The notes under the pieces: generated by a model | Database searches by the model: none | Told to the model about the DNA's origin: nothing | Seen by the model: only the letters and a program-made list of their open reading frames with translations | Part shown: positions 83 through 62,092 of the stretch, piece by piece | Layout: every line of letters starts with the position of its first letter | Numbering within the stretch: position 1 is the first letter of the stretch | Program-made: the position numbers and the translations under genes | Assembly (NCBI GenBank): GCA_021775965.1 | Contig: JAJFGV010000060.1 | Span: forward strand, 1 to 64,000 | Direction: 5' to 3' | Origin: Alphaproteobacteria bacterium | GTDB lineage: Bacteria > Pseudomonadota > Alphaproteobacteria > Micavibrionales > Micavibrionaceae | Length of the DNA stretch: 64,000 nt

Positions 83-1519
83 TTATTTACCCAACAAATG
101 CAAAAGAATCAATTTATCATCTTTTGTAAAAAATCTAAACATCAATAAAAAAGTAAAATAAGTTAAAGCACTTAAAATAATTACAAATGCAAGATTCAAT
201 TTTGCGGTAGTCAGTACTATAAACACTCCCATAATAGTCACACTTATCAACGGTCTTGAAAGTACAGCAACAATGTTGACTTTACAAATATATTTCGTAG
301 CATAATACCAACACATAGCAAATAAAGCAATTTCTGTAATAACGGTTGCATACCCTGCCCCCAAATATCCATAATTTGGTATTAAGCACATATTAAGGGA
401 TATATTTACGAAGAGGCATATTCCAGTCACAATTGCATTAATCTTTTGCTTATCAGCTGCTACAAGGATATTCAATAATATGTAATTAACAAAAATAAAA
501 ATTAACGAACATACAAGTATCCTTAAAGCAGGAATAGCTTTAACGTATTCTTCACCGTAGACTAAATCTATTATGCGGTCAGACAACAGTAATATGCCCA
601 CTACTATTGGCAAGGCAATTACCAAAAGATACTTAAAAGATGTTTTGTATACTTTCCCAAGAGAATCCATGGAATCTTTGTGCAAAATAGAGAAGATAGG
701 GAATATTGCACTTGCAACTACCGCAGGTATAACATGCATTAATTCAATTATCCTTACTGCAGCCGAATACCATCCAATCTCAAGATTATCCCCTTTGATC
801 AAAGAGAGCATAACGATATCTATTTTTACATAGATAACACCAAAAGTTACCGTTAACGCGATTGGTATCGATTCTTTAAGAATAAAATACCAAAACCTAA
901 GATTGAAACATGGACGTATATTCACAATACCTTTGTATACCATAAAACACCCAATAATTGAGCTGCTCAAATAGACTATTAAAAAAACACTAGACAATTC
1001 TAAAAGCCCAAAACCCAACGCCAATACCAGCGCTCCCGATATAAACAAGAGAATATGGTTAATTCCCTTTAAGACCGCTTCTTTGTCCATTTGTTCATGT
1101 GCATTAAAAACAGCGCATGACACTTCTAACAAAGACCTGAAAAACATTGCGCCACCAAAAACCATAACTAAAGTAATTATTTCGCCAGTATAGCCGGCAA
1201 GAACAACAAACAGGCCCATCACAATAACACACATAAACGAAAGAACAATTTTTAATACATAAATATTAGCTACATATTCTTCTGTCAGTTCTTTCTGTCT
1301 GGACACATTTCTTACAAGTAATCTATTCAAACCAAAATCTGCAATAAGAATACACATTCCGGTAAATGAGAAGGCAAATGACAACTTGCCAAAATCTTCA
1401 CCGCCTAATTTCCTGGCGACATATATGAATAATAATGCCGGAAGAACCTTTGTAGATTCAGCCAATATTTTATAAAAAATATTTCGTTTTGCCCTGTTAA
1501 TTAAATTGCCTTTAGACAC
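83..1519 (-). CDS. Wzx-like oligosaccharide flippase (MOP superfamily)
   Basis: A polytopic membrane protein of about 478 residues with roughly 12-14 hydrophobic segments. Near the N-terminus it has the pattern typical of polysaccharide-biosynthesis flippases (NRAKRNIFYKILAES, then YVARKLGGEDFGKLSFAFSF). Such proteins translocate lipid-linked oligosaccharide units across the inner membrane. The frame can start at an ATG at 1576, which would overlap the upstream gene by 76 bases. A GTG at 1519-1517, preceded by AGGGA at about 9 bases, leaves only a 19-base overlap and is preferred. Together with the adjacent O-antigen polymerase/ligase it suggests a Wzx/Wzy-type or lipid-carrier export route. 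Confidence 0.9.
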   Translation of the reverse strand: MSKGNLINRAKRNIFYKILAESTKVLPALLFIYVARKLGGEDFGKLSFAFSFTGMCILIADFGLNRLLVRNVSRQKELTEEYVANIYVLKIVLSFMCVIVMGLFVVLAGYTGEIITLVMVFGGAMFFRSLLEVSCAVFNAHEQMDKEAVLKGINHILLFISGALVLALGFGLLELSSVFLIVYLSSSIIGCFMVYKGIVNIRPCFNLRFWYFILKESIPIALTVTFGVIYVKIDIVMLSLIKGDNLEIGWYSAAVRIIELMHVIPAVVASAIFPIFSILHKDSMDSLGKVYKTSFKYLLVIALPIVVGILLLSDRIIDLVYGEEYVKAIPALRILVCSLIFIFVNYILLNILVAADKQKINAIVTGICLFVNISLNMCLIPNYGYLGAGYATVITEIALFAMCWYYATKYICKVNIVAVLSRPLISVTIMGVFIVLTTAKLNLAFVIILSALTYFTFLLMFRFFTKDDKLILLHLLGK

Positions 1520-3537
1520 GTTTTTGTTTCCCTGAATTGTGTTAATGCCACGGCAAGCCCCAATATTATTCCCCATTGAAGATGAATACCATGGACCACT
1601 AGAACATCTGTAAAATTACCAAACAAATAGACAATTACCCCTCCCACTAAGCCAACGAAAATACCATAGTCTCTGGAATTTCCTAAAGATTTCAAGGTAC
1701 TCGTTAAATACTTGAGCATACATGCTGACCAAAAAACGAATGTACATAAACCCAATATTCCTGCCTCAACAAATATCTGTAAATATAAATTGTGCAGATT
1801 TGTCTTTATAAAAGTTCCTGCTTCTTTGGTACGTACGCCTTTGGCTCTAAACAGCACTACCAGTTTATTCAGGCCTCCTGCAACATTAGCGTGATATTGA
1901 TCGATTACATTATTATCTATTTCAATTGCCCGCTTATAAAAAGCTTCAGCCTTGGTAAATTTGCCTTGAGAGTAATAAAGCAATGCCAGATTGTTCAGAT
2001 CTCCTGCAATATTATTCGGCTCTCCTGTAGAATTAGGATAATAATGATCAAGCACATTTTCGTCTATTTCTAGTGCTCTCATGTAAAGCGGCTCAGCCTT
2101 AGCATATTTACCTTGAGAGTAATAAAACCCTGCCAAGTTATTCAGGGATGTGGCCACACGTGGATGAAAGGTACCAAGTGAGATTTCATCCATTTTCAAT
2201 GACCGTTTGTAAAGGATTTCAGCTTCAACATATTTACCCTGCGAGTAGAAAATTAATGCCAGATTATGCAAGGTAGTAGCCACATCATAACTATTCTGGC
2301 CAAGAGCACTTTCTCTAATCTTCAATGAGCGCTTGTAATGGGTTTCGGCCTCAGAATATCTGCCTTGAACCCGATATAGTTCTGCTAAATTGTACAGGGT
2401 AGCAGCAACATCTAAATGGTCTGGTCCAAGTTCCTTTTCTCTTATTTTCAATGATCGTCTGTATTGAGACTCAGCATCAGAATATCTGCCTTGAACGCTA
2501 TATAATCCTGCTAGATTATTCAGTGTATACGCAACATCTATGTGATCTGATCCAAGGAGACCTTCTCTTGCCTTCAACGATCTCGTGTAACGAGACTCAG
2601 CTGTAATATCAGCATACTTTTCAATTAATAAAGGATAATTACCTGCTCCTATCCCAAAGAATAAATTGTCCCTTATCATATTAAACCCGATCGGATAAGA
2701 CGTTGTTCTATATTCTATAGTCTTATATGTGGCCTTAAGTCTATTTACAAAATCATCTCTAATGTTCGAAGACAGAAAAACAATAGCAAATGATACGGTA
2801 AGAATTATCAAAAGGAACGCAATCCTTTTTCTTTCTTTAGCTAGAAATGAAACAAGTAATAGAGTCATAATCAGAGACAACCATCCTGACTTAGAAAATG
2901 TTAAAAACCAGGTTGCAATCATCAACGCAATAGAACAACCTAATACGATCTTCTTCCTTAATAATGCACACACCATCAACATACCAAAAAGAACCGGTAT
3001 TATTAAATTAACATAACCCGATAAAGCATTTGGATGACCAAAAAACGAGGACGCTCCATGCCTTCCATCTATAGTTACAGCACCTCCAAGATAATTAATG
3101 ATCCCCCATATTGAAACTACAACTGCAGTTAAAACCATTGAATACAAAATTACTGTCATCTTCTTATGATCATTTATCAAATTTATAGTCAAATAATAAA
3201 TTGCAATAAGCTCTAGCCAACGAACAATTTCTTTTAACGTCAAAGATAATTCCATAAATTTAAAAGATGAGAGCAAAATGCACAGCATAAAAGGAAAATA
3301 GTAAAAGACCAATTTTCTATTTCCAAAATATTGCTCTGTCCCCATTATGCGCTTAAGAACACAAACAAGGGTGAGAACAGCCAAAATTGCTTCTATAGGA
3401 TAATTTGAAATGCAATTTAAATTTACTAATCCCTCAAATGGAATGAAAATGACTACAGCTGCAATACCCAAATACGGTTTGTAAAAAATCACACCCGTGA
3501 TTATACATAATATAATTATTGTAATACCCCAGAACAT
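1501..3537 (-). CDS. O-antigen polymerase/ligase (Wzy/WaaL family) with an inserted TPR array
   Basis: The N-terminal half (about residues 1-300) has around ten transmembrane segments with GHPNALSGYVNLIIPVLFG and FSKSGWLS motifs typical of the O-antigen ligase family (PF04932). After the conserved GIGAGNYPLLIEKYADI, where the large periplasmic loop lies, six tandem TPR-like units of 42-49 residues interrupt the protein. The family motif then resumes as TNLHNLYLQIFVEAGILGL with two further membrane helices. Known members polymerise O-units or ligate glycan to lipid A or protein at the periplasmic face. The frame extends upstream to an ATG at 3570, but that codon lies in the loop of an intrinsic terminator. 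The ATG at 3537, with AAGGA 10 bases upstream, is preferred. Polymerase and ligase cannot be told apart from sequence alone. Confidence 0.88.
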   Translation of the reverse strand: MFWGITIIILCIITGVIFYKPYLGIAAVVIFIPFEGLVNLNCISNYPIEAILAVLTLVCVLKRIMGTEQYFGNRKLVFYYFPFMLCILLSSFKFMELSLTLKEIVRWLELIAIYYLTINLINDHKKMTVILYSMVLTAVVVSIWGIINYLGGAVTIDGRHGASSFFGHPNALSGYVNLIIPVLFGMLMVCALLRKKIVLGCSIALMIATWFLTFSKSGWLSLIMTLLLVSFLAKERKRIAFLLIILTVSFAIVFLSSNIRDDFVNRLKATYKTIEYRTTSYPIGFNMIRDNLFFGIGAGNYPLLIEKYADITAESRYTRSLKAREGLLGSDHIDVAYTLNNLAGLYSVQGRYSDAESQYRRSLKIREKELGPDHLDVAATLYNLAELYRVQGRYSEAETHYKRSLKIRESALGQNSYDVATTLHNLALIFYSQGKYVEAEILYKRSLKMDEISLGTFHPRVATSLNNLAGFYYSQGKYAKAEPLYMRALEIDENVLDHYYPNSTGEPNNIAGDLNNLALLYYSQGKFTKAEAFYKRAIEIDNNVIDQYHANVAGGLNKLVVLFRAKGVRTKEAGTFIKTNLHNLYLQIFVEAGILGLCTFVFWSACMLKYLTSTLKSLGNSRDYGIFVGLVGGVIVYLFGNFTDVLVVHGIHLQWGIILGLAVALTQFRETKTCLKAI
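1815..2615 (-). repeat. Tandem TPR-coding repeat, about 126 bp period
   Basis: Six consecutive units encode kinesin-light-chain-type TPRs of the pattern LG..H..VA..L.NLA.LY..QG.Y..AE..Y.RSL.I. Four units are exactly 42 residues; the fifth carries a 7-residue insertion (YPNSTGEPNNI region) and the last is degenerate. The repeat lies wholly inside the O-antigen polymerase/ligase gene and keeps its frame. Units are clearly related but not identical at DNA level, so the array is not a recent slippage product, although recombination between units could change copy number. Confidence 0.9.
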
Positions 3538-3554
3538 AATTCCCATGTCCTTAC

Positions 3555-3583
3555 AAAAAAAAGAAGCCATAAAAAGGCTTCTT
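3555..3583 (-). terminator. Intrinsic terminator after the radical SAM-GT4-GT4 gene
   Basis: On the minus strand an 8-bp perfect stem (AAGAAGCC / GGCTTCTT, plus positions 3561-3568 and 3576-3583) encloses a 7-base loop and runs straight into an unbroken run of eight T residues. This is a textbook rho-independent terminator, placed 49 bases after the stop of the gene ending at 3632. It probably reduces transcription into the polymerase/ligase and flippase genes. Confidence 0.8.
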
Positions 3584-3631: not shown

Positions 3632-6600
3632 CTAATTGTTATTATTTAATAAAACCTTATCATATATTTCCAATATTCCCTTCGCGGCTTTCTCCCATGT
3701 GAACAATTTAGACCTTTGTAACCCCTTACTACTCATATGTTGCCACAACTCTTTTTTGGTTAGTACATTAGACATGACTTCACACAATGAGTCGACATCA
3801 GTAGGATTCACCATAATTCCCGCATCACCAATTACCTCTGGTAGAGAAGATGTGTTTGATGTAATTACTGGTATGCCACAAGCCATTGCTTCCAAAGGAG
3901 GTAATCCAAACCCTTCATAAAGTGACGGATATACAAATATGTCAGCACAATTATATAACATAGGCAAGTCCTCATCCCTTACCACACCCAAAAACATAAT
4001 TTCCTGCTGCAGATCACTATGGTCAACTTCTTTAAATATTTGTTTATAAAGCCATCCTTTTTCACCGGCTATAACCAATTTACAGTCCTCAAAACCTTTT
4101 TCTCTCAACCTCTTAAATGCTCTTATTAAAGTAACAACATTCTTTCTGGGTTCTAATGTACCTACGTTCAGAATCATTTTTGATGGTAGGTTATTCCTTA
4201 ATCTATATTCTTCCACATTACTAATAGGACGGAACCTGCTCTCAACACCAAGATGTACTACCTTTATTTTCTCTTCCTTAATTCTATAATATTTAATAAT
4301 ATCTCTCTTTGTTGAAAAAGAATCTGCAACAATAATGTCAGCTTTCTCTATTGAAATCTTTAATATATTTTTTTTATAAAACTGCCTTGATTTATTAAGC
4401 AAGTTAGGAAAACGCACATAAGCGATATCATGAACCGTGATAATAGTCGGACGTGTCATTTGAAACAAAGACATAGCATGATCGGTATAATGAAACAATT
4501 CAAGTCTATCCTTCCTCGAATAAATCGGTAAAATTATTTGTTCCCATATGATTCTTAACGTATTATTTTGTTTGATTACCGTTGGTTTTTCTAAATGAGT
4601 TCCTTTTATATCAGCTCTGATAGTATTACCCGTCAGGCCTGGTGTATAAAAATAATAATTATATCTACCATTCATATTTAAGATAGACTTGCGCAAATTA
4701 GACGTATATCGTCCCACCCCCGTATGTATATCACAAACTTTCGATGCATTTATACCGATTCGCATGTTTGCTTTTTTACGTAAGCCAGGTGTAAAAGAAA
4801 GATACAACTCTCTGGTTTCATTTAACATTCTATCCAAATTAAAACGTTTTTTAACATTTTCACGGGCATTTTTTGATAGATATTCATATATTTTCCGATC
4901 ATTTTTTAAAGTCTTAATTTTTTCAACTAATAAAGAAGGTTGATTAAGTGGGAACAACAAACCAGTTTTATTATCATCAACGACATCACTGTTTCCATAA
5001 ACCTTACTGGCCACAACAGGTTTTCCATATTTCATTGCTTCAACAGTTGAAAAACCAAAAGCCTCTCCAAGCGATGTATTTAGATAGATATCAATTGATA
5101 GAAAAAATCGCTTATTATCATTGATAAACCCCAATAGTATTACCTTATCCTGTAGATTGTATTCACTAATAGCACGCTCTATCTCCCGGCGGCCCTCTCC
5201 ATCCCCTCCTATCACTAGAAACACATCATCACTGTTTCTAAGATAGTCTGAAAGATTTTTTATTGCATAAGGTATATTCTTTATTCTATCAAAGCGAGAC
5301 AGCATACCTATTACGAAACTTTCGTTCGTAACTTTCTTTTTGGGAAATTGTAAAACAGAGCTCCTATCTATATCATTGTATATTTCATCATCTGTATGAA
5401 TTCCATTTTCAATTAAAGTGCTTTTTGAAACAGTCGTAATCCCGAGTCCCAAGGCAATTTGTCTCTCAGACTCTGAGACAAATATAAATTTATCAGTCAA
5501 TTTTTTCAAAAGTGACTCAACAATCACCTTGCGATTAATGCTTCTAGAGTGTATACCATGAAAAGTGTGCACCACTTTCAATTTTGTATTAAGCAGTTTT
5601 AAAAATCTAGAATAGATACCTGCCCCTCCACCATGAGAGTGGACGATCGTTATGTCGTTTGCTTTCAGCCATTTTGACAGTTTAAGAAATGTCAAAATTT
5701 TAAATTTTCGATATGGAAGCCTGAATACTAAAATATCCTCATGAACAATCTTATCATAGTAAGGTGGAGTATCAGGTAAAGCACAATAGAAATTGAAGGA
5801 TCCCTTGAGCCTAGTCATAATTTTAAAAAATTGCTCTGCCCCACCACCTTCGCTTCTAGAACTAATGATCAAAATATTTAACTTGCTTGATTTCAGCAAA
5901 GGTTTCGTTGAATTATTTAATGAAGCTTTTGTGTACATACGCTTCAGCTTTCTACGCAAGAAACCATTATGCATTAATTGTGTCTGTACCCAATCGTTTA
6001 TATAAAACTTTGCTATCATTCCGGAAAATGGGCCTAGCTTCTTTTCAAGCTTTCTCTTCATTGCATCATGTCTAATCTCTTTTCTTGCCTGTCTTGTCAA
6101 CACCAAGGCTTTAGCACGTTCCTCTGCCGGGAACTCCGGAGTTGCCAAAACAGGCTTATAGTCCCAGTGAGAAGAGTTGTTAAGATACTCTTCCGGATTC
6201 ATAATCAAGTATTTTTTATTTTTAGCCCATTCATACAGTTCTGTAGCAGGAAAGGGAATCAGATTATAAAATCTGGCATCAAAAACTGGATATTTCTTTG
6301 CAAGCGCAATGGATTCTTTAACTGTAGACAGATCCTCTCCGGGCGCACCAACAATAAAGAACAAGGTTACTGTAAAATCAAGTTCTATTGCCATTTTTAA
6401 GGCATTTTCTATAACGCCAAGATCCTGGCTTTTCTTGATATTTTTAAGAATTTGTTCGTTTCCTGATTCAATACCAAAAGCAAAATACTTAAAACCTGCC
6501 AGTTTCATTGCTGAAAGCATTTCCTTGTCTACTCTATCAGCTCGTATTCCATTGTTGCAGTTTAGCTCAAGATCTTTGAAATTTTTCTTGCAGATTCCAT

Positions 6601-7351
6601 CACATATTTTGAAGACTCTCTCTTTGTTTAAGGTAAAGTTATCATCCAAGATACTTATCTGCTTAAAACCACGGTTGTACCAGTATGTTATTTCATCAAC
6701 AATGCTCTCTGCACTTCTAATCCGATACTGTTGTCCTATGGACGTTTTTACAGGACAGTATGTGCAGTTAAAAGGACATCCTCTCGAAGAAACAATACCT
6801 ATTTCCTCTGTTACGTATTTGCCAAGTGGAAATTTTTCGAATCTTGGGAACGGAAATTCATCAAGATTCTTTTCAAATGACCTGGGCCCTACATAGTTTA
6901 CTTTTCCGTTTTTTCTGTATAAGAGCCCCTGTATACTCTCTACCTCAAAACCCTTACATAATTCCAACAGTGTGTACTCGCCTTCCTGCACAATGCCATA
7001 ATCTAAACCTTTACACTCCTCTAATGCTTTTTCTCTTAATGTAGATATATGAGGACCTCCAGCAACCACTGTGATGCCACTAGATATATCTTTCACACAA
7101 TTGATAATATAATATGATCGTTTGTACATAAAGCTCATAAGGCTTATGGCAACAAGGTCAGGCTTGAAAGACGAAAGTTTTGCCCTAAGAGTACTCAGAT
7201 TACACCCGGTTGCCATATCTAAAACTTCATATTCTACTCCCTCATCTTGAAGCATCTGGGCAAGATATCCGATCCCTGCAGGTGGCCGCAGAGCACCGAA
7301 ATGCCCTCCTGCGTAATCTGGAAATAACAATAAAACTTTTCTATATTTCAT
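3632..7351 (-). CDS. Three-part fusion: B12-binding radical SAM - GT4 - GT4
   Basis: Residues 1 to about 150 form a cobalamin-binding-like domain (AGGPHIS, QEGEYTLLEL). Residues about 180-470 are a radical SAM domain with the 4Fe-4S motif C192-x3-C196-x2-C199. From about 489 a GT-B glycosyltransferase begins (NILIISSRSEGGGAEQFF; donor-site motif SLGEAFGFSTVEAMKYGKP). From residue 863 a second one begins with its own methionine (MRIGINASKVCDIHTGVGRY; YPSLYEGFGLPPLEAMACG). Each part has the normal length of a stand-alone protein. The reading frame is continuous over 3.7 kb, and both linkers look like ordinary interdomain sequence. Family knowledge supports radical methylation, rearrangement or cyclisation for the first domain and sugar transfer for the other two; substrates are unknown. 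A missed stop or assembly error at the joints cannot be excluded. Confidence 0.88.
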   Translation of the reverse strand: MKYRKVLLLFPDYAGGHFGALRPPAGIGYLAQMLQDEGVEYEVLDMATGCNLSTLRAKLSSFKPDLVAISLMSFMYKRSYYIINCVKDISSGITVVAGGPHISTLREKALEECKGLDYGIVQEGEYTLLELCKGFEVESIQGLLYRKNGKVNYVGPRSFEKNLDEFPFPRFEKFPLGKYVTEEIGIVSSRGCPFNCTYCPVKTSIGQQYRIRSAESIVDEITYWYNRGFKQISILDDNFTLNKERVFKICDGICKKNFKDLELNCNNGIRADRVDKEMLSAMKLAGFKYFAFGIESGNEQILKNIKKSQDLGVIENALKMAIELDFTVTLFFIVGAPGEDLSTVKESIALAKKYPVFDARFYNLIPFPATELYEWAKNKKYLIMNPEEYLNNSSHWDYKPVLATPEFPAEERAKALVLTRQARKEIRHDAMKRKLEKKLGPFSGMIAKFYINDWVQTQLMHNGFLRRKLKRMYTKASLNNSTKPLLKSSKLNILIISSRSEGGGAEQFFKIMTRLKGSFNFYCALPDTPPYYDKIVHEDILVFRLPYRKFKILTFLKLSKWLKANDITIVHSHGGGAGIYSRFLKLLNTKLKVVHTFHGIHSRSINRKVIVESLLKKLTDKFIFVSESERQIALGLGITTVSKSTLIENGIHTDDEIYNDIDRSSVLQFPKKKVTNESFVIGMLSRFDRIKNIPYAIKNLSDYLRNSDDVFLVIGGDGEGRREIERAISEYNLQDKVILLGFINDNKRFFLSIDIYLNTSLGEAFGFSTVEAMKYGKPVVASKVYGNSDVVDDNKTGLLFPLNQPSLLVEKIKTLKNDRKIYEYLSKNARENVKKRFNLDRMLNETRELYLSFTPGLRKKANMRIGINASKVCDIHTGVGRYTSNLRKSILNMNGRYNYYFYTPGLTGNTIRADIKGTHLEKPTVIKQNNTLRIIWEQIILPIYSRKDRLELFHYTDHAMSLFQMTRPTIITVHDIAYVRFPNLLNKSRQFYKKNILKISIEKADIIVADSFSTKRDIIKYYRIKEEKIKVVHLGVESRFRPISNVEEYRLRNNLPSKMILNVGTLEPRKNVVTLIRAFKRLREKGFEDCKLVIAGEKGWLYKQIFKEVDHSDLQQEIMFLGVVRDEDLPMLYNCADIFVYPSLYEGFGLPPLEAMACGIPVITSNTSSLPEVIGDAGIMVNPTDVDSLCEVMSNVLTKKELWQHMSSKGLQRSKLFTWEKAAKGILEIYDKVLLNNNN

Positions 7352-17102: not shown

Positions 17103-18590
17103 TCAGGCATATTTCTCATAATAAATTTCTGACAATTCCTTAAACTTTTTGTCCCCCTCTTCATCAAACGTTTCTGCAATTTTGATATCACCATAGTATT
17201 CCTTTGGAAGTTTTGTATACAAAGTAAACGTTCTTTGTAAGCCTCCTATCTCTTCTTTTGTGATTTGCGGCATAGTCAATCCTGAAGAAAAATGAACGTC
17301 TTCAGCTAAATAATCTTCTGATATATAGCCTTTCTTGACACAATAATCCCTTAAGCTTGTTCCCTGATACGGCTGGAAAATATAAGCGCCAAAACTTTCC
17401 GCATCAACATCTCTACTTAAATCAATAGTTTCAAATATCTGTTCTCTGGTTTCGTCCGGAAAACCGATAATGTTATTTACAGAAACCGAAATATTGTATT
17501 CACTTATAATCTTAAACTTTTCCAGAAAATAACTATTGGAATAATTCCTTTTTAATATCTTCTTTCTAATATATTCACTACCACTTTCCAGGCCAATACT
17601 TATACGGTCACAATTGATACTCTCCAGTTTTTTAAGCCTGTCATGAGTTATTGTTTCAATTCTTGTATTAAACCAGAATGGTATTTTTATAGGCTTATAA
17701 AGTTCAACAAATTCATCTAATTTTTTTTCACCCATACTAAGAAAAGATTCTGATATGAAATAAAAATACTCTATATTATACTCTTTCAAATAGCATTCTA
17801 TTTCTTCAATTATTCTCTTGTTATCCTTTTGCCTAAACCACTTACCACTCTCTTTAAAACTTTCAGTAAGGGCTTGATCTGCACAATAAGTACAGGTATA
17901 TGGACACCCCCTTGAAAATTCAACAGGTGCCATTTTCAGGACCTTCCCTCCCACAGGTTTATAAAAACGCTCTTTCTGATATAATGAAAAGTCTAGATTT
18001 GGCAGTTTGTTTAAATCAGTGAGTGAAGATTTCCTGTTAACAAATACCTGATCATCCTCTTTTATTACCATGTTTTCAAGATTATTCAGGCTTACATTAG
18101 AAGACATATTTCTACAAATATTTACGATTGTTTCTTCGCCTTCTCCGTAACAAACCATATCTACCAATGGATGTTTTATTATTTTATTGTATGCAAATAT
18201 TGAATAAATCCCGCCAAAAACGACCTTAATGTCCCCCTTAATATCCCCAATTGAGTTTAAAAGTCTTTCTGCAATAGGGTAGGTAGGTTCTACAACAGAA
18301 AAACCTATTAGTTGCGGTTGGTAATCGACAATTAGTTTTCTGAAATCATCTAACATATTTGACGTCTTATAATTTATTCCATATTCAGACATATCTACGG
18401 GCTTCACCTGCAGCATTTCTGCTCTTTCATCATCAGAACTCTTTTCTGCTGTTTTATAAAATGTAGTATCAAACAATTTTACCTGTATCCCTTTTTCCTT
18501 TAAACAAGCGATTAAATAGGAAACACTTAATGGTATCAAATTGTCCATCATCGAATTAGCATAAACTAATACCACCTTAAACTCTTTCAT
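17103..18590 (-). CDS. B12-binding radical SAM protein (paralog A)
   Basis: A 495-residue class-B-type radical SAM protein. The N-terminal cobalamin-binding-like domain (about 1-155) contains FGGIYSIFAYN and CYGEGEETIV. The radical SAM domain carries C229-x3-C233-x2-C236 (GCPYTCTYC). The protein is closely similar in layout and sequence to the one at 19755-21248, down to the shared C-terminal pattern I(K/R)IAE.FDEEG..(KF/MY)..L...YYEKY. Only a HisC-like PLP gene separates the two. Family members methylate unactivated carbons or cyclise and rearrange substrates; the substrate here is unknown. AAAGGA precedes the start by about 9 bases. Confidence 0.9.
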   Translation of the reverse strand: MKEFKVVLVYANSMMDNLIPLSVSYLIACLKEKGIQVKLFDTTFYKTAEKSSDDERAEMLQVKPVDMSEYGINYKTSNMLDDFRKLIVDYQPQLIGFSVVEPTYPIAERLLNSIGDIKGDIKVVFGGIYSIFAYNKIIKHPLVDMVCYGEGEETIVNICRNMSSNVSLNNLENMVIKEDDQVFVNRKSSLTDLNKLPNLDFSLYQKERFYKPVGGKVLKMAPVEFSRGCPYTCTYCADQALTESFKESGKWFRQKDNKRIIEEIECYLKEYNIEYFYFISESFLSMGEKKLDEFVELYKPIKIPFWFNTRIETITHDRLKKLESINCDRISIGLESGSEYIRKKILKRNYSNSYFLEKFKIISEYNISVSVNNIIGFPDETREQIFETIDLSRDVDAESFGAYIFQPYQGTSLRDYCVKKGYISEDYLAEDVHFSSGLTMPQITKEEIGGLQRTFTLYTKLPKEYYGDIKIAETFDEEGDKKFKELSEIYYEKYA

Positions 18591-19754: not shown

Positions 19755-21248
19755 CTAAATGTACTTCTCATAATAGTCTTCCTTGAGCCTCTCATACATT
19801 TTGTTACCCTCATCGTCGAATTTCTCAGCAATCCTTATCTGGTCAAACATATCCTCAGGCATCTTAGCATAGAGTGGAAATGTCCTCTGGAGCCCTTTTA
19901 ATTCCTGATAGCTAATAGAATCCATCTTAAGAGGCACTCCATCAAGTAGTTGATGAACCCTATCATCTTTATCAAGATATCCCTTATCGATACAATATTT
20001 ATGCAGCTGTGTACCCTTATACGGAGTAAAGAAATAGACGTTCATTGTCGCCGGGTTTATTTGTCTGTTTATGTTAATAGTATCAAATACCAGTTCCCGT
20101 GTTTCATCCGGGAACCCAATGATATTGTTGACAGTATATGATATCCCATGCTTTTCAACAATCCTGAAGGCCTCCAGCATATGCTCATTGGTATAGCGCC
20201 GTTTTAATACATTTGCCCTGAAATCTTCATTCCCATGCTCTATACCAAACTGTGTATTTTGACAGTTCATTTCCTTGAGTATCCTGATCTTTTCATCTGT
20301 TACGGTTTCAGGCCTGGTCTGGCACCAGAAAGGAAGTCCGATATGTTTTTTGTATGCTTCAGCCAATTCTTTAAGTTTATCAACCGGTTTTGCAAGGAAG
20401 GTCTCTGAATTAAAGTTTACATAGTCTGGATTATACTTCTTCACAAGATGCCTCATCTCATCTATCACTCTATCGACACTCTTGCACCTGTAATATGTCC
20501 CGGCACCTTCATCGCGAAACAGATCTCTCAGATGCGGAGCTTCACAGTAAGTACAGTTATAGGGGCAACCTCTGTCAATCTCAACGTGAACCATTGTGTA
20601 TATCTTTCCCTGCATCGGCCTATAAAGTCTTTTACGTTCGAAGATATCATAGTCTATAAAAGGGATCTTATCTAAATTTGCCAATTGTCTCATCGGGTTT
20701 TTAGTTATTTTGCCATTTTTCTTAACCCACAAATTCTTTGTGTCGGAATAATCTTCATTTCTATTCATCTTCTCGCATAATTCTACAAGGGCCTCTTCGC
20801 CTTCACCAATGCAAACCATATCAACATTTTCATTACTTAAAACCTCATTCGCAGAAAAGGTAGTAAACACACCTCCAGCGATTACAGGTACTTCATAATC
20901 CTTTATTGTGTTTAACAGTGACATGCCAAGTCCAAATGTATCCTCAACCATGGTGATCCCGATAAGATGAGGTCTGAACTCATTTACCTTCTTTATTAAA
21001 TCTTCATGCATGTCAGTATCTTTGTACTCTACACCTTTCTCTTCATAGCTGAATGGCTTCAGCTGAAGAAGGTCTACTTTCTTTTGTTCAAAATTAATCT
21101 CTTCCCATTTGTAGTAAGTGGTATCAAACAAATCCACCTGGAACCCATTCTCCTTCAGGCATGGGGCGAGTACCGACAGGTTTATGGGCACCAATGTTGC
21201 CATCTCAGTATTGGGATATATAAACAAAACTCTGAATTCTTTTGACAT
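19755..21248 (-). CDS. B12-binding radical SAM protein (paralog B)
   Basis: A 497-residue radical SAM protein with cobalamin-binding-like domain (AGGVFTTFSANE, CIGEGEEALVELC) and C228-x3-C232-x2-C235 (GCPYNCTYC). It is a clear paralog of the protein at 17103-18590, matching through the whole length and the C-terminal tail. GGAG lies about 8-10 bases before the ATG. The duplication around a PLP gene suggests that both act on related intermediates of the same branch. Methylation is the default expectation for the family, but nothing in the sequence fixes it. Confidence 0.9.
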   Translation of the reverse strand: MSKEFRVLFIYPNTEMATLVPINLSVLAPCLKENGFQVDLFDTTYYKWEEINFEQKKVDLLQLKPFSYEEKGVEYKDTDMHEDLIKKVNEFRPHLIGITMVEDTFGLGMSLLNTIKDYEVPVIAGGVFTTFSANEVLSNENVDMVCIGEGEEALVELCEKMNRNEDYSDTKNLWVKKNGKITKNPMRQLANLDKIPFIDYDIFERKRLYRPMQGKIYTMVHVEIDRGCPYNCTYCEAPHLRDLFRDEGAGTYYRCKSVDRVIDEMRHLVKKYNPDYVNFNSETFLAKPVDKLKELAEAYKKHIGLPFWCQTRPETVTDEKIRILKEMNCQNTQFGIEHGNEDFRANVLKRRYTNEHMLEAFRIVEKHGISYTVNNIIGFPDETRELVFDTININRQINPATMNVYFFTPYKGTQLHKYCIDKGYLDKDDRVHQLLDGVPLKMDSISYQELKGLQRTFPLYAKMPEDMFDQIRIAEKFDDEGNKMYERLKEDYYEKYI

Positions 21249-21261
21249 TTCCGATACTCCG

Positions 21262-22254
21262 TTAATTTACTTTAGCCTCTTTCTTTTTGATCAATTCACT
21301 CATTCTGAGAGGACACTCTCCACACGCTTCAATATCATGAGCCTGCCCCTTCTTGTGCAGTTTACGTAATGTTTCCAGTGAATCGGTCCAACATTTCTTA
21401 ATAGAAACCGAATCTATATTTCCCATTGCCAGTTTACCGTAATAGTCGTTCTTACATGCAGTCAACGTTCCATCCCACATAACGGTCATTCTTTGATAAG
21501 GAAATGGACAAATCCATGACGATTTGATACTAGTAATATTATTACTAACAGTATCAACTGACGGCTCCATTTCGTTATAAGAAACCTGGTCTACTTTATC
21601 CTTCCAGAAAGAGACATATTCACTTAAACAATCTTTTAACTCTGGAACTAGCACTGCCTGTATACGTATTTTTGGTTTGGTACTGCATGCTTTTTCTCGC
21701 AAATTACGTAGCCTTTCAACATTAGCTACAACCTCCTCAAACTTAGCACCTGTACGATTTTTCTCATATAACGTTTTCTCAAACCCCTCGAAAGACACCG
21801 TCAAACGATCAAGACCAGAATCGATCAACATCTTTGCCTTATCATCTGTCAACAGTACGGCATTGGTATTAAGAAAAACATCAATAACCCCTTTCTTCTT
21901 AGCATATCTTATAAACCTACCGAGTTCTTTATGAAGTAATGGTTCTCCCCGAAAATTAAATTTACACGCATACAGCCCCTCTTCACCAGCTTCATCAAGA
22001 ATCTTTTTTACCGTTTTCCATTCCATGAAACCATTTTCAAATTTCGAATAAGTAGTAGCACAAAATGGACACTTCAGGTTGCATGCGCTTGTTACTTCGA
22101 TATCAAGATGAAGCGGAAATGAACCCGGATTAAGGTTATGAGGGTTTTCATTCCATAAGCGGCGATAAGTACGAAATTTATCATCGTCATTAGCAAAAAG
22201 ATCCTCCCCTGCTATATCGTGATGAATATTATCTTTTTCTGCAGTTTTTACCAT
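21262..22254 (-). CDS. Radical SAM/SPASM protein
   Basis: Residues about 48-250 form a radical SAM domain with C58-x3-C62-x2-C65 (SACNLKCPFCATTY). The C-terminal part holds a SPASM-type auxiliary cluster region (CPFPYQRMTVMWDGTLTAC, later IEACGECPLR). There is no B12 domain. SPASM enzymes dehydrogenate alcohols, epimerise or modify peptides and sugars; substrate unknown. The frame reaches a TTG at 22281, but the ATG at 22254 is preferred; the difference is nine residues. It follows the cytidylyltransferase gene closely and precedes the paralogous B12 radical SAM pair. Confidence 0.87.
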   Translation of the reverse strand: MVKTAEKDNIHHDIAGEDLFANDDDKFRTYRRLWNENPHNLNPGSFPLHLDIEVTSACNLKCPFCATTYSKFENGFMEWKTVKKILDEAGEEGLYACKFNFRGEPLLHKELGRFIRYAKKKGVIDVFLNTNAVLLTDDKAKMLIDSGLDRLTVSFEGFEKTLYEKNRTGAKFEEVVANVERLRNLREKACSTKPKIRIQAVLVPELKDCLSEYVSFWKDKVDQVSYNEMEPSVDTVSNNITSIKSSWICPFPYQRMTVMWDGTLTACKNDYYGKLAMGNIDSVSIKKCWTDSLETLRKLHKKGQAHDIEACGECPLRMSELIKKKEAKVN

Positions 22255-22295
22255 ATTTGTTAAATCCACGGAAGAGTTCAAATCTGATATCAGTC

Positions 22296-23057
22296 CTACT
22301 CATCAGCATTTTCTATGATCTCATTTTCCGTATAGCCATGCTCACGTAGCCAGTATTCTACCTGTGGAATCTGCCATTCGTAATCTACATCACATCCACC
22401 CCATTGTTTGAGTGGATAAATCCTTTGCCCCATCCATTTCTGAGGCAGAAGCCCATCTTCAATATTCTCAAGACATCTCGGTCTCACTATAGACACGCCC
22501 ATGTCCGCAAACCATGCATCACCCTGCGAATCTCTATCACAATTAAGGGTTTTCGGATCACCAAAGGTTTCAAACGGTACGAATGGATGAAGCAATCCAT
22601 CCTCACCAATTTTTCTAGCCCTTAAAGGGCTCCACATATTGTATGCAGATGCAGAGACAGCTGAATCTATCTCCGGATTCTCTCTCAGCACCCTTATGCC
22701 TTCCTCTATCAGTTCATAAGTAACTGTAACAGCATTACAAAACAGGAGAACTATTATTTCTATGTCTTTGCCTGGATTCCTTTTCTTTATTTCTAAATAA
22801 CCATGTACAAAAGCATCCTCTCCCAGGGCTTCTTTGGTACACAATTCAGGAGGTCGCTCAATTACCTCTACATTATTTTGCCTGGCAAGCGCCATCAAAT
22901 CCTTATCATCAGTAGAAATGAACACAGTATCCACATTCTTAGAATTGTTAGCAACTGACATAGGATAAAACGCAAGAGGTTTACCCAATACAGGATATAG
23001 ATTCTTTCCAGGAAAGCCAACGCTACCTTTTCTGCCCAATAAAAGTGCTGAAACCAT
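22296..23057 (-). CDS. Cytidylyltransferase of the acylneuraminate (NeuA) family
   Basis: A 253-residue nucleotidyltransferase. The CTP-binding loop is intact (LLLGRKGSVGFPGKNLYPV, R9 with G-S and P-G-K-N), followed by GKPLAFYPM and FISTDDKDL, as in CMP-sialic-acid synthetases. The remainder diverges from true NeuA (DSQGDAWFADMGV near the C-terminus). It probably activates a ulosonic acid or another acid sugar with CMP. It is one of four NeuA-like modules in the window, three of them within 22296-25301. Confidence 0.83.
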   Translation of the reverse strand: MVSALLLGRKGSVGFPGKNLYPVLGKPLAFYPMSVANNSKNVDTVFISTDDKDLMALARQNNVEVIERPPELCTKEALGEDAFVHGYLEIKKRNPGKDIEIIVLLFCNAVTVTYELIEEGIRVLRENPEIDSAVSASAYNMWSPLRARKIGEDGLLHPFVPFETFGDPKTLNCDRDSQGDAWFADMGVSIVRPRCLENIEDGLLPQKWMGQRIYPLKQWGGCDVDYEWQIPQVEYWLREHGYTENEIIENADE

Positions 23058-23208
23058 AGTTTAATTACCTCAGTAGTTTACAAGTTACATTTAAATTTGT
23101 CTTTTTATATAAAATTATACTTTCCTTATTTAAGCAGTTTAAGATCGCGTATTCTCTATACTTATTCTCATAATTCTTGATGACTTTCACAATAATTATG
23201 AAAATAAA

Positions 23209-24558
23209 TTATTCACTATTTCTCCAAAAGCCTATTAATTTTTCTGCCATCTTAAATTCTTCATCTCCCCTCACTTCTATAGGAGAATAAGGATTGTTCA
23301 CTTCATACACACCTACCCTACTACCCAGGAGAGAGCCTTCTCTAACAAATTCCGGGTGAGTCACACAACACAGACCTTTTAAGCCAATAAAGCAGGGTTC
23401 TTTGTATTTTCTCGGGATATCTCCCTTATCAACCCTTTCTATCCTGCCGTCTTTCTCACTCCAAATCGACATAGACTCCCTTCTCACGGCTAACACACTG
23501 TCAAATCCGTTTTCTACAAGTTGTATAATCATATCGTCTATAAGTTGTTTTGGCCTGAACGGAAATGTTATTTCGAGGTACACAATAATATCCGGAAATA
23601 TTTTCAAATCTTCCATCCTTTCCATTGAATATTGGAGCACTTTTTCAACATCCACAAAATCTTCTGAGAGAGATTCATCTCTCAGGAATGGCGCACTGGC
23701 TCCTAATTTTTCAGAAAGTTTTGCAAGTTCAGGATTATCAGTAGAAACTAAAATCTTATTGATATATTTTGATTGCAATGCCTGTTCAATTGTATAGCCA
23801 ATCAACGGTTTGTCTCTCAGTAAATCATTTTCACCTTTAACTGGAATAACAGCAATAATGTTCAGCTTGTCGATATCGATATGAATATTGTTTTTCGTCT
23901 CAGGCTTAAGAGCTTCAAGAATACGGACAATATTAGCACACCTCTCTTCATTTCCGTGGTGATAAATGCCATGATAGTTATAAACACTTGCCCTTGGTTC
24001 ATAAACTATCTTATATCCCCCATGCAGAACCTTCTCTGCCCATACCCTATCTTCTATATTAGCCAATGTTTCATCAAATGGATTTTCTTCCCATAATTTT
24101 CTGTGTAACATGCTATTCGCATTATGAAAAAAGCTATCTTTATATTGTGTTCTTCTGTCTAGACCAAAGATTATGGAGAGGTCTCTTTTGTCCGAGTCTG
24201 GAGTAAAAGCAAGTGGTTCCTGGCGTCCGTAAACACCTGCGACTTCATCATCATCAAAGTTTTTCAACAAGCTTGAAAGCCACTTGTCATTAACAGGAAT
24301 ACAGTGACCGGAGAGACAAACTATATATTCCCCTTTAGATTCCCTTATACCCATGTTAAGAGCTAAACCCGGCCTGAAATCCTCACATGTTACTACCTTC
24401 TTAATATCAAAATGTAATGCTTTTTCAATAGTCTTATCCGTACTTACGTTATCTACCAGGATAACCTCAAAGTCTTTATAGTCCTGCTTGAAAACACCCA
24501 TTAAACAAGGCGTTATCCACCGTTCCTCATTTTTAGTTCTGATTATGATAGAGATCAT
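23209..24558 (-). CDS. Fusion of GT2 glycosyltransferase and NeuA-like cytidylyltransferase domain
   Basis: Residues 1 to about 230 are a GT-A glycosyltransferase (MISIIIRTKNEERWITPCL, LVDNVSTDKT, CLSGHCIPVNDKWL). Residues about 235-449 are a cytidylyltransferase-like domain (PLIGYTIEQALQSKY, ILVSTDNPELAKLSEKLGA, PDIIVYLEITFPFR). The CTP-binding loop is shortened to PVKGENDLLRDKPL and lacks the usual R-x-G-S-K/R-G...P-K-N residues. The second domain may therefore be regulatory or use another substrate. The start overlaps the upstream gene by ATGA, consistent with translational coupling. Confidence 0.85.
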   Translation of the reverse strand: MISIIIRTKNEERWITPCLMGVFKQDYKDFEVILVDNVSTDKTIEKALHFDIKKVVTCEDFRPGLALNMGIRESKGEYIVCLSGHCIPVNDKWLSSLLKNFDDDEVAGVYGRQEPLAFTPDSDKRDLSIIFGLDRRTQYKDSFFHNANSMLHRKLWEENPFDETLANIEDRVWAEKVLHGGYKIVYEPRASVYNYHGIYHHGNEERCANIVRILEALKPETKNNIHIDIDKLNIIAVIPVKGENDLLRDKPLIGYTIEQALQSKYINKILVSTDNPELAKLSEKLGASAPFLRDESLSEDFVDVEKVLQYSMERMEDLKIFPDIIVYLEITFPFRPKQLIDDMIIQLVENGFDSVLAVRRESMSIWSEKDGRIERVDKGDIPRKYKEPCFIGLKGLCCVTHPEFVREGSLLGSRVGVYEVNNPYSPIEVRGDEEFKMAEKLIGFWRNSE

Positions 24559-25301
24559 TTTTCTCGCACTCCTTCAATATCATAGACAATCTTATCATAT
24601 TTAACCTCTTGCCCTTTATATTGTTTCTCCGCTCTCATTATATAATCAGCAAGCTGAATATCTTCCTCGGTCTTAACAATAAGTGTGGACTTTTTACTTA
24701 CAGGATAGTAACCGACCTTACCACAGAATAGCGCATGCCCGCGCTTCTCGTATGTGTCTATAAATGTCCTGCTTCGCCACATCATTATTGAATATACAAA
24801 TGGTTTAACAGGCTCTAAATCCTGAGTTTGAGCAAATATCTCTTCCATCCTGAAGTTGATGGGATTGTCTTTATAGACACAGTGAACCTGCTCGTTCTTT
24901 GTGGTTATAAGGGTGTCCAGCCTTTCCTTAACAAAGTAGTTTATGACTTCTTTAATCTCATGACCAGTCTGCAAAGGAGACGTCGGGTTAGTCCAGGCAA
25001 GCACATCGGATGGATGTTTCGACATAAAATCGTAGACAACGGTATCTGACTTTGCACTAGAGGAGCCAAGCTCTACGGGTCTTTGATAAAACTCTATATC
25101 ATAACGCCTTGCAATTTCAGCAAAAATCTCATTGTCAGAATTCAAAACAACCCTGTTGAATACACCAGAGGTTTTTGCCGCCTCAATAGTATAGTATATA
25201 AGAGGTTTGCCATCAATAAGTGCAAGGTTCTTCATCTTGAGCCGTGTACTCCCAATCCTTGCAGGAATCATTGCGATTATATTCAAATCTTCATTCACCA
25301 C
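24555..25301 (-). CDS. Cytidylyltransferase of the acylneuraminate family
   Basis: A 248-residue CMP-sugar-synthetase-like enzyme with an intact loop AMIPARIGSTRLKMKNLALI, then GKPLIYYTIEAAK and VVLNSDNEIFAEIARRY. The P-A-R-I-G-S-x-R-L pattern is intermediate between NeuA and KdsB types. Both candidate starts at 25301 and 25298 are GTG codons and no suitable ATG exists upstream. The stop overlaps the next gene by 4 bases. The adjacent fusion gene carries a degenerate version of the same domain, so the two proteins might form a mixed complex; that is inference. Confidence 0.82.
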   Translation of the reverse strand: MVNEDLNIIAMIPARIGSTRLKMKNLALIDGKPLIYYTIEAAKTSGVFNRVVLNSDNEIFAEIARRYDIEFYQRPVELGSSSAKSDTVVYDFMSKHPSDVLAWTNPTSPLQTGHEIKEVINYFVKERLDTLITTKNEQVHCVYKDNPINFRMEEIFAQTQDLEPVKPFVYSIMMWRSRTFIDTYEKRGHALFCGKVGYYPVSKKSTLIVKTEEDIQLADYIMRAEKQYKGQEVKYDKIVYDIEGVREK

Positions 25302-31452: not shown

Positions 31453-32970
31453 TTAAAGGTTTTTAAAAAGATTACCAAATGAAATAGAAGTATTTCTTTT
31501 CAATAACATACTTATGAACAAACTTCCAAATTTCACTGAGAGCAAAATACCTAAGAATACTAATGCCGGTATTTTTTTAAAAGTTTCCATCATTTTCTCA
31601 CCCGCCGTAAACCATCCTGCACCTTCACCAGGCGTAGTAAGTATCCTCTTGATCTTTTTAATATCCATGTAGAATATTATATAGCTAAACAAGATATCAT
31701 TTCTTATTTCATTCTCGGTACTCCCTATCGGCACATAAGAAAATGGTATTTTCTTAAAAGGATTTTCAATAAACGTAGACACTGAAAGAAAATTTTCATA
31801 ATTGTTCTGTATATTTAAGGCACCTTCCTTTTTTGCTATTTGATAAAGTTCGGTACCAGGATATGGCGTTGCATTATTGAATCTAGCCATATCTATCTCA
31901 AGTTCTTTACTAAGTTTGGCACAACTTATTCTATCACTGTGAGTTTCAGTAGGAAACCCATATATGAATGCGGCACTAACATGAAAACCTAATTCCTTTG
32001 CCATACGGACCGCATTGATACATTGCTCTACCGTTTCACCCTTTTTTATAAGTTCCATAATTCTATTTGATGCAGTCTCCATACCAAAGAAGACACTTTT
32101 GAATCCGCTGCTGTATAAATCTTTAAATAATGCATAATCGGCATTATCACCCCTTGCCTGAAAGCTGAAAGTCATTTTTTTGTCAAGGCCTCTCTGTCTT
32201 ATCTCATCTATTAATGCATAAATCCGCTTTTTACTAACAAGAAAATTATCATCCAGAAAAAGGATAAAAGTCTTCCCGTGTTTATGATATAACACTTCCA
32301 GATCGTCGACAATAGACATTGAGGATCTGTATCTATACTTCAGCCCCGTTGTAACTCTATTGCTGCAGAATATGCAACCGTACGGACAACCTCTTGAACT
32401 AACTACAAAACCTAGATCATATTTTTTTGATGTAAACCGGTGATAGGGAAATGGAGGCAAACTGTCTAAATCGTTGACAAAGGATGCTATATTATTATGT
32501 ACGATTTTTCCATTCTGTCTGTAAGAAATACTTTCAATGTCATTAAAGCTTCTGCCTTCCTTTATACACTTATATAAACCCGGCAAAATCAACTCACCCT
32601 CACCCCTGACAATAATATCGATATGTTCATTTGACAAAACTTCGTCAGGTATTGCGCTCGCGTGTACCCCTCCAATACATACTATGGAATCAGGATACAA
32701 CTCTTTTAATCTCTTTGAGACAACCATAGCCCTGTTGTATTCAGCTGTCATCACACTGAATCCAAAAATGTAAGGTTTGTCCATCTCTTTAATATAGTCA
32801 GATATCTTCTCAAAGACATTTTCTTCTACCTGTTCATCTATAAACCTAGTTCTAATTCCTGCTCTTTCAGCAATTGCAAGAAGATAGCCAATTCCCACAG
32901 GAACATAAATAGGCAGAAATGGTTGAAATATCTTTAATGCTTCCCTGGTTGACGAATTAATTAAGATCAT
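31453..32970 (-). CDS. B12-binding radical SAM protein
   Basis: A 505-residue protein with a cobalamin-binding-like N-terminus (PVGIGYLLAIAERAG, IGGVHASAIPDE, VRGEGELIL) and radical SAM motif C195-x3-C199-x2-C202 (GCPYGCIFC). The C-terminal region (about 400-505) includes hydrophobic stretches (PALVFLGILLSVKFGSLFIS) that could associate with the membrane. It follows a small membrane-protein gene by five bases, and a GT39 gene lies downstream. Action on a membrane-bound polyprenyl-linked sugar is possible but unproven. Confidence 0.9.
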   Translation of the reverse strand: MILINSSTREALKIFQPFLPIYVPVGIGYLLAIAERAGIRTRFIDEQVEENVFEKISDYIKEMDKPYIFGFSVMTAEYNRAMVVSKRLKELYPDSIVCIGGVHASAIPDEVLSNEHIDIIVRGEGELILPGLYKCIKEGRSFNDIESISYRQNGKIVHNNIASFVNDLDSLPPFPYHRFTSKKYDLGFVVSSRGCPYGCIFCSNRVTTGLKYRYRSSMSIVDDLEVLYHKHGKTFILFLDDNFLVSKKRIYALIDEIRQRGLDKKMTFSFQARGDNADYALFKDLYSSGFKSVFFGMETASNRIMELIKKGETVEQCINAVRMAKELGFHVSAAFIYGFPTETHSDRISCAKLSKELEIDMARFNNATPYPGTELYQIAKKEGALNIQNNYENFLSVSTFIENPFKKIPFSYVPIGSTENEIRNDILFSYIIFYMDIKKIKRILTTPGEGAGWFTAGEKMMETFKKIPALVFLGILLSVKFGSLFISMLLKRNTSISFGNLFKNL

Positions 32971-49834: not shown

Positions 49835-51361
49835 TCAAATGAAAACCCGCTCTTGATAATAAGAGTACAAATCTGAATCAAGTCGTTCATTGAGTTTGTT
49901 TTCATTGACATGCCCTACTGCTCTGGAGATTGAAGAAATGTCTCCAAGAAGTTGTTGAATTCTGGGATCTGATTCGTAAATATTATACATTTCTTTGTCA
50001 AGGGGCTGGTACGTATTAAATACTAAATTAAACAAAAGCTGGAAATTGTTTAGAAAGCTTACGTCTTCTTCTTTAACCCATGGGCGAAACTTCAGGCTTA
50101 ACTCGCCATACATATCAGTCTGGCACCATTCCTCTAGATTCTCAGGTAGGACCAGGCCGTATTCTCTTTGCATTAAACTTGTAAGAGATGCTCCAGGATA
50201 AGGCATGTATTGGTACAAGCTCATTCTCGATATGGGATTGATTTTTTTAAACTCCCTACATAGATTAACTGTAGCCAAAATATCTTCGTCAGTTTCAAAA
50301 GGAAATGCAAATATAAAATTATGTACCGTGCTCAACCCCATGTCACGCATTTTCGTATTAAATAGCTTCATTTTGCTATAGTCATCCTTTTTGTTAAGAT
50401 ACTCCTGGATCCTCGATGAACCGGTTTCAGGTGAATAAGCAACAAAATCACAAAAGCCGGAAAACTCCTTAACGACTTTATCTTTAAAAGTATTAAATTT
50501 GCTGCGAATAGAACTTATTTTGATCCCTCTATCTTTAAATTCCCTGATTAATTCAATGGCACGGCCAGTATGAAGGATGAAATTTTCATCAGCACTTTCA
50601 AAAATGTCAAATCCGAATTCGCTGTGTAAATAATCAATCTCTTCCATGATGCGCTTAACACTAAACGCCCTCCATATATCACCTTTATTGACACTATCAA
50701 CTTCCCCTTTGTAACAATACGTGCAAACAAAAGGGCATCCTCGTGACGTAGTAATAGTCGCTAAATATGGATACTGTGCAGGATTGAGATATTCTTTAAA
50801 TTGATGCCATGACGGTATTGGTAGGTCATCCAACGGATCAATCTTTCTGGATGGCAGCGTCATCATTGTTTTTCCATTTGTTTTGTAATAAATTCCACTA
50901 ACGTGTTTCAGATGTTTTCCTTCGTTAAGCGCCCTTGCCAATTCAACCACGGTATAATCACCTTCAGCCAACATAATAATATCTACTAGTTCATGTTTTA
51001 TAGTACTTTGCGGATATATTGTCGGATGTACACCACCCCATGCGATAGGAATATCATTTCCATAATTTGAACGAAGCATTCGGGCTATTCTAAGACCATT
51101 ACTAATCTGCGACCCTGTCATGCTGGAAATACCGAAAAAAAGTATTTCCCCCGCCTTGGAAATTTTCTCCGTCATTTCTTCCTCAGTCATCACTCTGTCG
51201 TCAAGCAATATTACGGGAAAACCGGCTTTCTCTAAAGTAGAGGCCAAATACATTATAGAAAGAGGGGCGTACATTCTCCTGATACTATGTATATCTCGTC
51301 TACGCTCTTTCGAATAGCCTCCTGTTGGTCTTGGGTAAATTAAAACAACATGTTTTTTCAT
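49835..51361 (-). CDS. B12-binding radical SAM protein
   Basis: A 508-residue protein with cobalamin-binding-like domain (YAPLSIMYLASTLEKAG, WGGVHPTIYPQST, LAEGDYTVVEL) and C209-x3-C213-x2-C216 (GCPFVCTYC). ESADENFIL and YSPETGSSRIQEYL are the usual SAM-barrel strands. The common GEGE motif is replaced by AEGD. It stands apart from its upstream neighbour by 115 bases and is followed by a stem-loop. Reaction and substrate unknown. Confidence 0.9.
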   Translation of the reverse strand: MKKHVVLIYPRPTGGYSKERRRDIHSIRRMYAPLSIMYLASTLEKAGFPVILLDDRVMTEEEMTEKISKAGEILFFGISSMTGSQISNGLRIARMLRSNYGNDIPIAWGGVHPTIYPQSTIKHELVDIIMLAEGDYTVVELARALNEGKHLKHVSGIYYKTNGKTMMTLPSRKIDPLDDLPIPSWHQFKEYLNPAQYPYLATITTSRGCPFVCTYCYKGEVDSVNKGDIWRAFSVKRIMEEIDYLHSEFGFDIFESADENFILHTGRAIELIREFKDRGIKISSIRSKFNTFKDKVVKEFSGFCDFVAYSPETGSSRIQEYLNKKDDYSKMKLFNTKMRDMGLSTVHNFIFAFPFETDEDILATVNLCREFKKINPISRMSLYQYMPYPGASLTSLMQREYGLVLPENLEEWCQTDMYGELSLKFRPWVKEEDVSFLNNFQLLFNLVFNTYQPLDKEMYNIYESDPRIQQLLGDISSISRAVGHVNENKLNERLDSDLYSYYQERVFI

Positions 51362-62048: not shown

Positions 62049-62092
62049 ACTTTTTATTTCTCTCTATAAGAACGAATCAATTAGGAAGTAAA

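Follow-up and report, generated by a model that had tools for sequence, protein, structure and literature searches.

An array of kinesin-light-chain-type TPRs between the active-site loop motifs of a WaaL/Wzy-family membrane glycosyltransferase

Introduction

Little is understood of how enzymes of the WaaL/Wzy family (GT-C, PF04932) select a lipid, a glycan or a protein as acceptor. The reference for the fold is WaaL (PDB entry 7TPG), which has a Wzy_C domain, an invariant Arg, a GxG motif and an invariant His, and a large periplasmic loop in which GxG and His lie ≈25–36 residues apart. In the O-oligosaccharyltransferases PglL and WsfB, Wzy_C is joined to tetratricopeptide repeats (TPRs) at the C-terminus, and these repeats are proposed to bring about protein–protein contact (PMC2943079). 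The repeats of the kinesin light chains (KLC1/KLC2, and bacterial BtubC/Bklc) form a solenoid of 42-aa units, and none of these domains is an insertion within a membrane enzyme.

Here, we describe a gene in a 64,000-nucleotide stretch of a metagenome-derived contig (the window) whose product shares Wzy_C, the invariant residues and, as judged from an ortholog, the fold of WaaL, but in which the GxG and His are separated by 287 residues that hold a KLC-type array. Whereas the TPRs of PglL and WsfB are C-terminal, this array separates the two halves of the active-site loop. The combination of Wzy_C with C-terminal TPRs is already known; the in-loop placement is a variant of it, and we do not claim that it is unique.

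Results

A single frame with a split Wzy_C domain

The enzyme is encoded by one open frame (Table 1), which rules out two separate genes or a frameshift. The original prediction had given the gene as 1501–3537, but position 3537 corresponds to an internal Met (M12); the frame reaches 3570, and comparison with orthologs places the conserved start Met at M9 (nt 3546). Pfam matched positions 3–112 of the 149-position Wzy_C profile to aa 214–317 with 62.9 bits (cut-off 31.7), and a scan of the assembly found the remaining C-terminal part beyond the array. Downstream of the array, the protein continues with an HN motif and more hydrophobic helices, so that a C-terminal TPR domain mistaken for an internal one could also be ruled out.

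Among 21 family members, one Arg, both Gly residues of GxG and the His were invariant, corresponding to R288, G306, G308 and H593 here, and the array separates the Arg/GxG side of the enzyme from the His side. R288 and H593 were matched to WaaL residues by motif and not from a structural alignment, with the undecaprenyl pyrophosphate (Und-PP)-binding Arg residues of WaaL taken from PMC10920833. Profile, conserved residues and the fold of an ortholog (see below) place the enzyme in the WaaL/Wzy family. The sequence fits a polymerase, a ligase and a protein transferase alike, and these activities cannot be told apart from it.

Table 1. Coordinates of the gene, its domains and its neighbor within the window.
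Feature	Position	Strand	Evidence and remarks
Wzx-type flippase (Polysacc_synt), next gene	83..1576	(-)	Pfam; conserved neighbor in all three orthologs
WaaL/Wzy-family (PF04932) membrane glycosyltransferase with internal TPR array	1501..3570	(-)	689 aa; one open frame
Wzy_C, C-terminal part (profile 126–148)	1738..1806	(-)	Same open frame; scan of assembly
LHNLYLQ motif (aa 592–598)	1777..1797	(-)	Contains H593
H593, invariant catalytic-type His	1792..1794	(-)	Ortholog and family comparison
DNA block missing in S. rubra	1810..2615	(-)	806 nt, versus 20 nt in S. rubra; blastn
TPR array, six periods (A324 to K582)	1825..2601	(-)	Pfam TPR_12 3e-52, TPR_10 2.8e-51
Wzy_C, N-terminal part (profile 2–113)	2617..2934	(-)	PF04932, 57.8 bits, cut-off 31.7; scan of assembly
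GIGAGNY motif (aa 306–312)	2635..2655	(-)	Motif search and ortholog comparison
R288, invariant loop Arg	2707..2709	(-)	Invariant in the alignment and in the four orthologs; by motif, counterpart of the second Und-PP-binding Arg of WaaL

Fold of the enzyme and placement of the loop

Sequence searches of the PDB gave no match. The ortholog from Scalindua rubra, which has no TPRs, was modeled with AlphaFold2 from an alignment with 20 relatives (pTM 0.86, mean pLDDT 81.8); mixed alignments that placed distant Wzy halves in the TPR block were left out of the folding. The best structural match of this model was WaaL 7TPG (Z = 25.4 over 367 residues), followed by SEDS proteins with Z of 16.8 or less. 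The GT-C/WaaL fold was thus found in the TPR-free ortholog, whereas the membrane part of the window protein itself had a pLDDT of 25–70, and the model of the two together is confident for the array only. The insertion point corresponds to a poorly ordered linker in the ortholog (residues 318–322, pLDDT < 50), which is preceded by a short helix (305–313) and followed by a helix that starts at residue 326, just after His 324. The array is inserted just after the short helix that follows GxG, ≈10 residues before the catalytic-type His.

The short loops carry 18 Lys and Arg residues on one side of the membrane and 3 on the other, a positive-inside pattern when the protein is taken to have 13 hydrophobic helices (WaaL has one fewer). 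Together with the WaaL fold, this charge pattern argues against a cytoplasmic location of the TPRs, and the large loop with the array is predicted to lie outside the cytoplasm, on the periplasmic (paryphoplasmic) side. The original prediction had assigned the protein to the WaaL/Wzy family, read GIGAGNY and LHNLYLQ as the motifs of the family's loop with the array between them, and put that loop in the periplasm. All three statements held: the membership in the profile, the conserved residues and the ortholog fold, the motifs in the resemblance of the TPR-free ortholog to 7TPG, and the side of the membrane in the charge bias. Neither outcome that had been set to refute it, TPRs on the cytoplasmic side or flanking motifs foreign to the loop of the family, was seen in these predictions.

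The TPR array

The six periods span aa 324–365, 366–407, 408–449, 450–491, 492–540 and 541–582, and are 42, 42, 42, 42, 49 and 42 residues long, the fifth holding seven extra residues (NSTGEPN). Six units had been predicted, and the count stands. Their register is shifted, however, since the array opens with a helix B and closes with a degenerate helix A, making five full helix pairs with half a pair at each end. The “NLA” Asn, a residue that in KLC forms part of the lining of the peptide groove, is present in units 1–5 and absent from unit 6. This sixth unit is degenerate and has lost consensus residues. The units have diverged from each other, with a DNA identity of only 48–75% between them, and silent changes outnumber replacements in most pairs.

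In the AlphaFold2 model of the window protein, the array had a pLDDT of 94–98 for aa 331–500, 95–97 for aa 521–550 and 81–86 for aa 551–580, with a dip at the seven extra residues. The closest folds were the TPR domains of KLC1 and KLC2, several of them with bound cargo peptides, and the structural alignments gave 36–44% identity. The model and the 42-aa TPR_10/TPR_12 units agree on the KLC type, and the array is confidently predicted to form a KLC-like solenoid.

KLC-type arrays are abundant in the Scalindua-related genomes. The other TPR gene of the assembly (C97) was considered as the source of a recent copy and ruled out, as it is only 42% identical in amino acid sequence. The nearest TPR proteins in the order of S. 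rubra are only 55–63% identical over their best stretch, and no donor was therefore assigned.

Orthologs without the array

Three genomes in the S. rubra order contain orthologs (L131, L132 and L133) in frames of 431–440 aa, all of them without TPRs. They are 58–63% identical to the N-terminal part of the window protein and 60–65% identical over the host columns, and in all three the next gene is a Wzx-type flippase that is 65–70% identical to the one in the window. Their Wzy_C domain is one unbroken stretch that scores 61–69 bits. The DNA is collinear with that of S. rubra, and is 73% identical on one side and 76% on the other side of the block that is missing there.

The orthologs have GxG-to-His spacings of 25, 25 and 28 residues. 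Compared with the 28-residue ortholog (G635), the extra length in the window protein is 259 residues, or exactly six summed repeat periods. The spacing from GxG to HN is 23–36 residues in a further 16 family members (two from this assembly, 14 from Brocadiales), and an internal array in a spacing of 287 residues is therefore more than a chance arrangement. The linker between the motifs is variable in the relatives and rich in Lys in the Brocadiales paralogs. The loop of G635 has the residues T-A-E at the join, and A-E also opens helix B of every repeat; plausibly, the array was gained by recombination at this short common A-E stretch. Loss of the array in the relatives would be less economical than gain.

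R170, R277, R288 and H593 are all retained in the window protein. The dN/dS ratio of the host part is 0.21–0.32, whether or not the window protein is one of the pair, and shows no marked acceleration; the window protein is 60% identical to G635, and the other two orthologs are 63–64% identical to it. Together, these observations argue against decay of the enzyme, and the substitution pattern shows the host part to be under purifying selection.

Search for other in-loop arrays

PF04932 matches in 28 genomes (about 100 places) included none that was split around an array. A query built on the junction found no second in-loop array in 392 genomes and none among the matches listed for 44 genomes. 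A search of 150 genomes had none in the best ≈155 rows. Literature searches turned up no description of an in-loop TPR. The survey covers the sampled genomes, and distant cases could be missed. The original remark that some family members have C-terminal TPRs is confirmed by PMC2943079 and by the Brocadiales paralogs.

A Wzy_C protein of ≈850–970 aa with C-terminal TPRs is shared by Brocadiales (L176–L180, L185), and has a long variable stretch ahead of GxG. The large proteins L177, L178 and L185 are from the same order and share the domain and the presence of TPRs with the window protein, but their TPRs are C-terminal and the long loop stretch, which is not TPR, lies before GxG. These long-loop paralogs were considered as a second in-loop case and set aside on that basis, by eye.

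We did not file the window enzyme as a PglL/WsfB-type protein O-transferase, because its array is internal instead of C-terminal and because the only curated O-glycosylation-ligase profile with a match (TIGR03097, exosortase-linked) gave 47.4 bits, far below the cut-off of 188.1. It may nevertheless function like one.

Origin of the contig

The assembly is a bin of 122 contigs, and the window lies on one of them (C78). Neither the three other genomes of the bin's genus nor the 141 genomes of its order contained a detectable relative of the enzyme. The G+C content is 48–52% in contigs C60, C12 and C83, versus 35–38% in C78, C14 and C3. The last 5.2 kb of C78 matched four genomes of the S. rubra order, mostly at 70–85% DNA identity, versus no match in nine sampled genomes of the bin's genus and family. 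The taxonomy of the bin was dropped as a guide to kinship, given the lack of an enzyme relative in its genus and order and the Scalindua-type DNA of the contig. Most likely, judging by these sequence comparisons, C78 is a mis-binned contig of a Ca. Scalindua-like anammox bacterium; horizontal transfer of the whole 84-kb stretch is less likely. C14 and C3 are similarly low in G+C. The end of C78, outside the window, also contains two intergenic elements of ≈100 bp (L152: 18632–18747 and 19378–19503) that have many dispersed copies, 72–92% identical, in Scalindua-type genomes.

The surrounding glycan cluster

The gene is part of a large cluster of glycan genes, in which it adjoins the flippase. 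The cluster makes a complex glycan and includes genes for nonulosonic acids. These sialic-acid-like sugar genes are located at 22296–25301 and 60969–63271 (minus strand), and encode NeuB, a UDP-GlcNAc 2-epimerase and three cytidylyltransferase-type proteins, one of them fused to a GT2 domain. In a single frame of 1239 aa (3632–7351, minus strand), two GT4 glycosyltransferases are fused to a B12-binding radical SAM enzyme, and the two-GT4 arrangement also adjoins the G635 ortholog. Radical SAM genes are unusually numerous in the cluster (17103–18590, 19755–21248, 21262–22281, 31453–32970 and 49835–51361; minus strand), most of them with a B12-binding domain. A Pfam scan of 36 window proteins found no Wzz-type chain-length regulator, no export-type protein and no obvious acceptor protein.

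Discussion

We propose that a Scalindua-type WaaL/Wzy enzyme gained six KLC-type TPRs in the variable linker of its active-site loop. The solenoid would lie above the side of the active site that takes the acceptor, and would bind a protein, most likely an acceptor glycoprotein or a partner that presents the acceptor. The neighboring Wzx would flip the lipid-PP-linked glycan, which would then be delivered to the selected target. This model parallels the one proposed for the C-terminal TPRs of PglL and WsfB. Docking of an acceptor protein or of a partner next to the active site, to which we assign a probability of about 0.5, is suggested by analogy, because the TPRs of PglL and WsfB are described as mediating protein contacts and because Kuenenia, an anammox bacterium, has a heavily O-glycosylated S-layer protein (PMC5088730). 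The acceptor may be an S-layer or a secreted protein. Only one array-bearing protein was found, too few for a measure of how well the array is conserved.

The data do not firmly separate this reading from two others. The array might be a nearly neutral insertion that folds but has no selected role, leaving the enzyme to work like its TPR-free orthologs. Such an event would be easy to accommodate, given that all three orthologs do without the array, that the length of loop from one motif to the other differs naturally among relatives (23–36 residues, with Lys-rich linkers in the Brocadiales paralogs), that KLC-type arrays abound in related genomes and that the last unit is degenerate. However, five units keep the TPR consensus and the frame stays open despite 25–50% DNA difference between units, and silent changes exceed replacements in most unit pairs, part of which may predate the insertion. 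We regard neutrality as unlikely on balance, though it deserves to be kept in mind. The solenoid might instead act as a scaffold for polysaccharide machinery, tethering the enzyme to a partner in the periplasm or outer membrane for chain length control or export. For polysaccharide export, TPR proteins are known as scaffolds (work cited in PMC2943079), and the gene adjoins a flippase in a large cluster of glycan genes, but the scanned window proteins lack a Wzz-type or export-type partner, and the position of the array next to the catalytic His would be an odd site for a mere tether; we consider this explanation rather doubtful.

An artifact of assembly, joining a TPR gene into a Wzy gene, would have to be entertained in a metagenome bin with apparently foreign contigs, for a repetitive sequence in a gene only 1.5 kb from the contig start. 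Against it, collinearity with S. rubra extends over both Wzy halves and the flippase, to each side of the array, the frame is open across both junctions, the added residues make up whole repeat periods, and the units are only 48–75% identical in DNA; the collinear flanking DNA in particular makes an artifact very unlikely.

To return to the docking model, a bolder form of it holds that the docking module turned a glycan ligase or polymerase into a selective protein O-glycosyltransferase, with array-free versions in sister species. This form is speculative, and we think it improbable as it stands. If it is true, insertion of a domain in the active-site loop of a GT-C enzyme would alter acceptor choice. 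The retention of the key residues indicates that the loop can take a solenoid of ≈260 residues. The same enzyme is found with and without a protein-binding domain beside the catalytic His, in close relatives and with a common neighboring gene, and comparing the two forms would be a direct test of whether TPRs control acceptor choice or chain length.
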